The position numbers were made by a program, and so were the translations under genes. Of a stretch of DNA of 46,708 bases, positions 30,925 to 32,583 are shown in pieces; position 1 is the first letter of the stretch; every line of letters starts with the position of its first letter. The notes beneath the pieces are model-generated. The model had not been told where the DNA came from. It was given only the letters and a program-made list of their open reading frames with translations, and did not search any database. The DNA comes from Deltaproteobacteria bacterium RIFCSPHIGHO2_02_FULL_44_16 (GTDB lineage Bacteria; UBA10199; 2-02-FULL-44-16): NCBI GenBank assembly GCA_001798185.1, contig MGRM01000010.1, forward strand, positions 1 to 46,708, written 5' to 3'.

Positions 30925-31002
30925 CGGGGTGTAGCTCAGCATGGCTAGAGCGCTGCGTTTGGGACGCAGAAGTCGCTGGTTCAAGTCCAGTCACCCCGAC
31001 CA
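30925..31002 (+). tRNA. tRNA-Pro (anticodon TGG)
   Basis: Acceptor CGGGGTG pairs with CACCCCG; anticodon stem CTGCG/CGCAG with loop TTTGGGA carries TGG (30960-30962). The T-arm contains GGTTCAAGTCC and the 3' end encodes ACCA. It lies 14 bp before the sugar-kinase start, so tRNA and kinase probably share a transcript. Confidence 0.96.
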
Positions 31003-31015
31003 AATTTTCAGCATC

Positions 31016-31912
31016 ATGACTCTTCTTCCGACCATCTGTGCGCTTGGCGAAATTCTGGTAGACTATTTCCCAGACGGAAAGCGACTCGGTGGCGCGCCGT
31101 TTAACTTTATCACGCACATGCAGCGACTCTCTTTCCCCACGATGTTCGTGACGCGTATCGGTCGCGATCACGATGCTGATGAGATTCTTCAATTTCTCAA
31201 AAAAATTGAAATGGATCTGACATGGATCCAGCAAGATGACGAACATCCCACAGGATCGGTCACGGTTCATTTTCGTGACGATGGCTCGCATTCGTTTACT
31301 GCGGCTGAGAATACAGCGCAGGATTATCTTGTGGCATCCGAGATTCCGGAACAGCAAACGCCGAAGGCGCTTTTTTTTGGAACGTTTGGCCAGCGTCATT
31401 CAGTGGCAGCAGCTGCTCATGACCAAATGCTGTCGCGAATGAAAGGAAGAACGAAACTCTTTTGCGATCTCAATATTCGTCCACCATTTTTTACAAAAGA
31501 AATTGTCGAACAATCGCTTCGTTTTTGCGATGTTTTAAAAATCAGTGAAGAGGATATTTCATTTCTGTATCGAATTTTTTTTCATCTTCCTCAAAACCCA
31601 TACGACGTGGTGCGAATGTTAATGGATAAGTACGATATTGAGCACGTGTATCTCACAAGAGGCTCGGAAGGGAGTCTGCTTTTTGAGGGGAATAAAAAGA
31701 TCGCAATCGATGCTGCAAAAGCGAACGTTGTGAATACGGTCGGAGCGGGAGATGCCTATTCTGCAATCGTTGTCGCTGGTATGGTTTTGAATTGGGAGTC
31801 GCAGATGATTTTAGAGCGAGCGTCAATTTTTTCCGCAGCGATCTGCGAGGAAGCAGCGGCTATTCCCGCCAAAGATGAATTTTACAATCGTTTTAAAGTA
31901 TGGTTTTCATGA
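31016..31912 (+). CDS. PfkB-family carbohydrate kinase (fructokinase-like)
   Basis: A 298-aa ribokinase-fold enzyme. ALGEILVDYFPDGKRLGGAPFNF fits the first PfkB signature (sugar binding). FCDLNIRPPF, LTRGSEGSLLF and NTVGAGDAYSA (GAGD with the catalytic Asp) form the ATP site. The sequence order is closest to fructokinases, but the sugar is not certain. I take the ATG right after tRNA-Pro; longer versions would start within the tRNA. No Shine-Dalgarno is visible. Confidence 0.9.
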   Translation: MTLLPTICALGEILVDYFPDGKRLGGAPFNFITHMQRLSFPTMFVTRIGRDHDADEILQFLKKIEMDLTWIQQDDEHPTGSVTVHFRDDGSHSFTAAENTAQDYLVASEIPEQQTPKALFFGTFGQRHSVAAAAHDQMLSRMKGRTKLFCDLNIRPPFFTKEIVEQSLRFCDVLKISEEDISFLYRIFFHLPQNPYDVVRMLMDKYDIEHVYLTRGSEGSLLFEGNKKIAIDAAKANVVNTVGAGDAYSAIVVAGMVLNWESQMILERASIFSAAICEEAAAIPAKDEFYNRFKVWFS

Positions 31913-31942
31913 ACGACTTTTGATCTTTTACAAAGCAATATT

Positions 31943-32259
31943 GCGCCCGTAGCTCATTTGGATAGAGCACAAGCCTTCAGATAGGAGCCCTGACTGAGAA
32001 AAAAATCAATCAGGTGGATGGTGCTATATGCGGGGACGCCCTTAAGAGCCTTTGGTACCGAAAGGTAACAATCCAAAGGATTGGGTAATCCGCAGGTAAC
32101 CTCGTTTTAATGAGGACACCTCAGAGGCCATACGCACCACGCCTGAAATGGCGAAGATATGGTCCAGCCTACAAACCGCGAAGTAAGAGAGCGGTGCTTG
32201 GGAAAGCCAAGTGTGGGATGCTAAGCTTGGGGTAGCAGGTTCGAATCCTGCCGGGCGCG
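31943..32259 (+). tRNA. tRNA-Arg (anticodon TCT), interrupted by a group I intron
   Basis: The 5' exon 31943-31977 (GCGCCCGTAGCTC..., ending ACAAGCCTT) and 3' exon 32221-32259 (CTAAGCTTGG..., ending CGGGCGCG) join to a normal 74-nt tRNA. Acceptor GCGCCCG/CGGGCGC, anticodon stem CAAGC/GCTTG with loop CTTCTAA and anticodon TCT, and T-arm GCAGG-TTCGAAT-CCTGC all pair. CCA is not encoded. The intron separates U34 from C35. A strong terminator follows at 32260. The 3' end of this gene is the apparent source of the repeats in the island that follows. Confidence 0.94.
31978..32220 (+). ncRNA. group I self-splicing intron, 243 nt, in tRNA-Arg(UCU)
   Basis: The 5' exon ends CUU and the intron contains GAG at 31985-31987, giving a 3-bp P1 with the U·G pair at the splice site. 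P2 is CCTGA/TCAGG (31989-31993 with 32010-32014). P3 is GGTGC 32020-32024 with GCACC 32134-32138. P7 is GGCCATA 32126-32132 with TATGGTC 32158-32164 (the typical AAGATATGGTCC), and P8 is CGCC/GGCG. The intron ends in G at 32220. The short CUU/GAG P1 and insertion between U34 and position 35 resemble the cyanobacterial tRNA-Leu(UAA) intron (IC3 type). There is no homing endonuclease frame. Confidence 0.93.
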
Positions 32260-32300
32260 CAAAGAAGAAGGATCGGGTTCACCGATCCTTCTTCTTTGCA
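32260..32300 (+). terminator. intrinsic terminator after tRNA-Arg
   Basis: GCAAAGAAGAAGGATCGG and its reverse complement (CCGATCCTTCTTCTTTGC) face each other across GTTCA, an 18-bp perfect stem whose 3' side is T-rich. It follows the tRNA immediately. Confidence 0.7.
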
Positions 32301-32583
32301 TGTTTTGCATGGATGAGAACCGCCCCCACGAATTATTGGGGGGCTGGTCGCGACCGAGGCGAGCGTCATCCTGAGCTTGTCGAAGGATGATCGCCGAGGA
32401 AGTGGTGGAGCCGTGAGGCGGAAACCAAATCTGCCGGGGGCGCAAAAATTTTGGCGTAGACAAATTTTCATTTGAAAATCTTGACTTTTTTTTTAAAAAA
32501 TTACCAAAGAAATCAAAGGCCAATACAATTTGAACGCCTTACCAAATCAAAAGACAAAGCTGGATATTATTGGGAGTATAAAA
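32300..32583. other. non-coding region at the island's left edge
   Basis: No credible gene lies between the tRNA-Arg terminator and the next start codon. The stretch holds one arm of the CATCCTGAG repeat (32365-32390) and the degenerate tRNA-Arg 3'-end copy at 32425-32469. Frames on the minus strand here are antisense to tRNA or repeat sequence and were not called. Confidence 0.6.
32425..32469 (+). repeat. tRNA-Arg 3'-end-like repeat R2
   Basis: AAATCTGCCGGGGGCGCAAAAA here matches GAATCCTGCCGGGCGCGCAAAGA at the tRNA-Arg 3' end (32243 onward) with few changes. It continues into ATTTTGGCGTAGACAAATTT, akin to the 30.9-kb inverted repeat. It marks the first scar of the island. Confidence 0.6.

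Follow-up and report, generated by a model that had tools for sequence, protein, structure and literature searches.

A small group I intron interrupting the tRNA-Arg(UCU) anticodon loop and its relatives at the same site in other bacterial phyla

Results

The analyzed DNA, referred to as the window, is a 46,708-nucleotide stretch from Deltaproteobacteria bacterium RIFCSPHIGHO2_02_FULL_44_16. On its forward strand a tRNA-Arg(UCU) gene occupies positions 31943-32259 and contains, between U34 and C35, an insert of 243 nt (31978-32220); the insertion point in the anticodon loop reads CUU^CUAA. The 5' exon (31943-31977) extends from the acceptor 5' strand to U34, and the 3' exon (32221-32259) from C35 to the discriminator G, with no encoded CCA. 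Joined, the exons form a clean, complete tRNA with anticodon UCU, and its body shares 97% identity with the uninterrupted tRNA-Arg(UCU) of a member of the same class (genome G015, locus L198). The boundaries of the insert were set by exon structure and by the rule that a U precedes the intron and a G ends it; on this reading the terminal (omega) G is position 32220. The locus folds more stably than its shuffled counterparts (MFE z-score -3.8). The initial annotation of this DNA gave the same coordinates, length and U34/C35 site, and the elements it named, P1 (CUU/GAG), P2, P3, P7, P8 and the terminal G, are all present. Its claim that the exons join to an intact tRNA-Arg(UCU) agrees with the near-identity to the intronless relative.

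A terminator-like hairpin with an 18-pair stem and a 5-nt loop lies directly 3' of the tRNA (32259-32299). The gene order from 30925 to 32299 is tRNA-Pro(UGG), a putative sugar-kinase-like ORF (read from the sequence), the split tRNA-Arg and the hairpin. The stop codon of the ORF and the split tRNA are only some 30 nt apart, and no promoter-like site was found in this interval. Directly past the terminator, at 32360-32400, we noted GTCATCCTGAGCTTGTCGAAGGATGATCG, which we take to resemble a common dispersed repeat of uncultured bacteria.

In a search at an E-value threshold, the Rfam group I intron model (RF00028) matched positions 31967-32182 over the whole model, with 48.6 bits and E = 1.9e-11. 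The covariance-model search proposed as a check in the initial annotation thus returned a hit, though 1.4 bits under the gathering score of 50, and an Rfam scan at gathering thresholds, the default, did not report the intron.

To examine the fold, a 71-pair model of P1 to P10 was drawn from the window and its pairs were scored in the window intron aligned to 13 further Arg(UCU) introns (n = 14). Pairing was present in 91.8% of cells, compared to 79.5% after shuffling and at most 51% with the partners slid, the latter control being somewhat in the model's favour because the structure was derived from the window itself. Changes on both sides of a pair were seen in 36 of the 71 pairs (18.9 in shuffled alignments), and P2, P3, P4, P6, P8 and P9 are the covarying helices. 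P1 is invariant and P7 nearly so across the 14 introns, which is expected and in itself no evidence for the fold.

In P1 (31975-31987) the exon CUU (31975-31977) pairs with the internal guide GAG (31985-31987), with a U.G pair at the 5' splice site, in 14 of 14 introns. The P10 strand UAG (31982-31984) faces CUA of the 3' exon (32221-32223) and is paired in 81% of cells. The guide UAG-GAG fits both exons of the site, UAG in P10 and GAG in P1; among the matches listed, 80 of 118 Arg(UCU) introns have UAGGAG in their guide. Both-side changes occur in seven of eight pairs of the P2 hairpin (31989-32014) and in four of the five pairs of P3, whose 5' strand (32020-32024) is paired with 32134-32138 in 100% of cells. 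The fold model continues at 32029-32094 with P4 (32029-32034/32089-32094), P5 (32038-32041/32083-32086) and a P5 extension closed by a GAAA loop (32049-32079). P6 and P6a follow (32095-32120; both-side changes in 5/7 pairs). P7 (32124-32130/32160-32165, spanning 32124-32165) carries a bulged A32125, encloses the 3' strand of P3 (32134-32138), and is 100% paired with one double change. P8 (32140-32153) has both-side changes in three of four pairs. P9 with P9a and P9b occupies 32168-32217; P9 shows both-side changes in three of five pairs, while conservation does not extend to P9a and P9b in the form drawn. By analogy with G264-C311 of Tetrahymena, we take G32126-C32164 to be the candidate guanosine-binding pair and A32125 the P7 bulge. 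The RF00028 match, the pseudoknotted P3-P7 core with P4-P6 and P8, the splice-site U.G and the terminal G confirm that the insert is a group I intron with a complete core from P1 to P10.

Bulge-helix-bulge introns are known from archaea, and an insert located in the anticodon loop might likewise be removed by a protein tRNA-splicing endonuclease of that kind. However, the length, the conserved core, the U.G pair and the terminal G are all those of a group I intron, and we give such a mode of removal practically no credence.

We then considered whether the host depends on splicing of this group I intron. The genome assembly comprises 1.98 Mb in 29 contigs and is 97.5% complete. Among the 43 distinct uninterrupted tRNAs that ARAGORN identified in it, none has the anticodon UCU, and an uninterrupted tRNA-Asn(GUU) is also absent. 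When the genome was searched with the joined tRNA, the only 100% matches were the two halves in the window, all others being 75-82% identical. AGA codons are in use (86 of 12,604 codons in the long ORFs of the window). With no intronless tRNA-Arg(UCU) found in a genome of this completeness, the intron most likely has to be spliced out. The only tRNA-Asn(GUU) is interrupted at U35/U36 by a second group I intron (C22:10064-10309, L001, minus strand; 87.7 bits), which differs from the window intron and has an IC3-like core. Since the only Arg(UCU) and Asn(GUU) copies are split, both would depend on splicing unless intact copies lie in the missing 2.5%. A third RF00028 match (C29:22295, 22.9 bits) lies between ordinary genes without tRNA halves and was taken as chance.

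Were the intron a decayed relic incapable of splicing, the gene would be a pseudogene and AGA would have to be read by another tRNA. The slightly sub-threshold RF00028 score and the long branch of the window intron in the core tree (below) could be read this way, but all core helices and the guanosine-site features of P7 are intact, the exons form a clean tRNA, and the genome search yielded no other UCU tRNA. In addition, the cut-off is missed by close relatives of the same type as well, which makes the RF00028 model, and not decay, the reason for the low score of the window intron. We therefore consider a dead intron highly improbable.

The gathering score was reached by none of 21 Arg-type introns tested from other genomes, and ordinary annotation consequently misses introns of this kind; the only tested Arg(UCU) intron that reaches it is a mosaic from Aeromonas (below). 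ARAGORN in default mode did not report the split tRNA-Arg(UCU), and with introns allowed it miscalled the locus as tRNA-Pro(UGG). Its intron mode was dropped for anticodon calls because of wrong boundaries (Pro for Arg; several Asn as Thr).

A pattern scan over 84,980 named genomes yielded at least 119 loci; as the pattern was designed to find such introns, these are counts and not frequencies. An independent parser recognized a tRNA-Arg(UCU) split at the same U34/C35 site in 113 of the matches listed. Among those listed, 42 are from Bacillota, 22 from Acidobacteriota, 18 from Bacteroidota, 17 from Pseudomonadota, nine from Chloroflexota, three from Thermodesulfobacteriota, and one each from Schekmaniibacteriota and Mycoplasmatota. 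In the 46 genomes of the window's class (a phylum-wide survey covered the same 46), four others carry an Arg(UCU) intron (G003, G018, G022 and G032), and about 20 have an uninterrupted tRNA-Arg(UCU). The window intron thus belongs to a family of tRNA-Arg(UCU) introns with the same site and, as the tree below also indicates, a homologous core in other species. The initial annotation considered Arg(UCU) a less usual host, a view that does not hold with at least 113 intron-bearing loci at this site in at least eight phyla, besides the four genomes of the same class: tRNA-Arg(UCU) is a common, overlooked group I intron host in many bacterial phyla. Relatives in the class (L034-L062, L182-L187) also carry group I introns in tRNA-Lys(CUU), Leu(UAA) and Met(CAU), each after U33, and in Asn(GUU) after U35.

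The window intron contains no ORF of 60 or more amino acids and hence, as initially noted, no gene for a homing endonuclease. The accompanying conclusion, that splicing must for this reason be self- or host-assisted, is not justified: in group I splicing the RNA is the catalyst with or without an endonuclease, and presence of an endonuclease bears on mobility and not on splicing. Among the matches listed, 29 of 117 other Arg(UCU) introns are at least 560 nt long (range 560-670 nt), and 24 of these 29 have an intact ORF of at least 125 amino acids. Three endonuclease families are represented, PD-(D/E)XK, LAGLIDADG and an HNH-like protein encoded on the opposite strand, which was assigned by motif and has no Pfam hit. 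Several introns of 310-420 nt keep fragments of a PD-(D/E)XK gene. A search of the window genome found no endonuclease of a matching family, and the same search gave no match in the control either.

Introns of Acidobacteriota, Chloroflexota and Schekmaniibacteriota have the same P4-P5 type as the window intron. Tree inference on 107 cores placed the window intron with the Acidobacteriota/Chloroflexota Arg(UCU) set (support 100/88); the tree is based on 189 columns and has many weak nodes, a long window branch (0.73) and a bootstrap that had not settled. Compared with the tRNAs that host the closest Acidobacteriota introns, the body of the window tRNA has an identity of only 78-82%. With the intron near those of Acidobacteriota and Chloroflexota and the tRNA near a gene of its own class, different histories seem likely, as homing would give. 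This incongruence of intron and exons, together with patchy presence alongside intronless alleles, is the pattern of a mobile intron, and suggests that the intron moved without the tRNA.

Vertical inheritance of intron and tRNA together from a class ancestor would account for the intron at the same site in four other class members, one of them in the same family. These introns, however, have the other core type, and forcing them into a clade with the window intron costs 55 log-likelihood units and is rejected (AU p = 0.018); moreover, the roughly 20 class members with an uninterrupted gene do not favour common descent. We consider it unlikely that the intron was inherited in this way, and cross-phylum transfer of the window intron is moderately supported by these sequence comparisons.

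The mosaic mentioned above, from Aeromonas veronii CECT 4257 (L109), matches Arg(UCU) introns at both ends (at most 89% at the 3' end) and Asn/Lys-type introns in its middle, which points to recombination of different intron families at a single site. Viral contigs of IMG/VR (L258-L271, e.g. L270, L259, L262 and L267) also carry tRNA-Arg(UCU) split at the same site. In several of them the split gene lies within a tRNA array and the intron holds an HNH_3 or PD-(D/E)XK gene, and L270 encodes in addition phage primase/helicase and ribonucleotide reductase. In DNA similarity searches of isolate-phage records, neither the window nor L259 had a match in a split tRNA-Arg.

Discussion

Taken together, the data very strongly favour a compact, endonuclease-less group I intron in a single-copy tRNA-Arg(UCU) gene, which is predicted to be spliced and to have been acquired by transfer of the intron alone. 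According to the proposed mechanism, the pre-tRNA would fold and an exogenous GTP, bound at P7, would attack the 5' splice site held by P1 (CUU/GAG with its U.G). P10 (UAG/CUA) would then align the 3' exon for attack by the freed U34 behind the terminal G, and the resulting uninterrupted tRNA-Arg(UCU) would go on to RNase P processing and addition of CCA. Horizontal transfer from a source lineage now found in Acidobacteriota and Chloroflexota is the most likely way in which the intron came to the window tRNA, probably by homing at a time when it or a relative carried an endonuclease.

The usual hosts of bacterial tRNA introns also include tRNA-Arg(CCU). Reviews place tRNA group I introns in cyanobacteria and alpha- and betaproteobacteria, in tRNA-Leu, fMet, Ile and a few others (PMC4033280, PMC3984707, PMC8450103), and the open-access literature yielded no mention of tRNA-Arg(UCU) among their hosts. 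The window intron is one more case of a known intron type; of greater interest are how widely the Arg(UCU) family is spread and that default annotation does not show it. Genomes with a split tRNA-Arg(UCU) will seem to be without the essential tRNA that reads AGA, and inferences on completeness or codon usage that build on their tRNAs will go wrong. The Arg(UCU) set also offers a natural allele series (empty, endonuclease-bearing, with decaying endonuclease, compact) in which the homing cycle can be tested.

All phage introns known in 2014 were in protein genes (PMC3984707); the phage copies described here suggest a vector. On balance we lean towards the view that a large group I family missed by default annotation uses position 34/35 of tRNA-Arg(UCU) as a landing site across phyla. 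This family would have gained at least three endonuclease families, swapped parts of its core with other tRNA introns, and been carried in phages' own tRNA-Arg(UCU), possibly being ferried between phyla.

Among known systems, the tRNA-Leu intron likewise interrupts the anticodon loop behind U34. The likeness to it drawn in the initial annotation stands for the position, but not as a special kinship: the tRNA-Leu intron resides in a different tRNA, no IC3-like intron in the set matched the window intron significantly, and by core similarity the window intron falls outside the IC3 tRNA-Leu(UAA) type, with matches to Arg introns only (best non-Arg E = 0.65). The cyanobacterial initiator tRNA intron, which encodes I-Ssp6803I, is found in another tRNA and at another site, and differs from the window intron also in having an endonuclease gene. 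I-Ssp6803I is a distant relative of the PD-(D/E)XK endonucleases that Arg(UCU) introns encode (PDB 2OST, E = 4e-4; Pfam PDDEXK_5); the Met introns of class relatives encode close relatives of I-Ssp6803I (2OST, E = 2e-49). The mainstream Arg(UCU) introns of Bacillota, Pseudomonadota, Bacteroidota and the class members L196 and L244-L246 share tRNA, site and guide logic with the window intron, but have the P4-P5 type AUCGGUGAA, and some encode PD-(D/E)XK, LAGLIDADG or HNH endonucleases. The Arg(UCU) introns of Pyrinomonadaceae and Chloracidobacterium (L075, L090, L092, L097, L122, L127, L139 and L141), although from another host phylum, lie like the window intron between U34 and C35 and share its core type, UAUGCGGG(G/A)ACGCCCU(U/G)AGAGCC, with 66-70% core identity.
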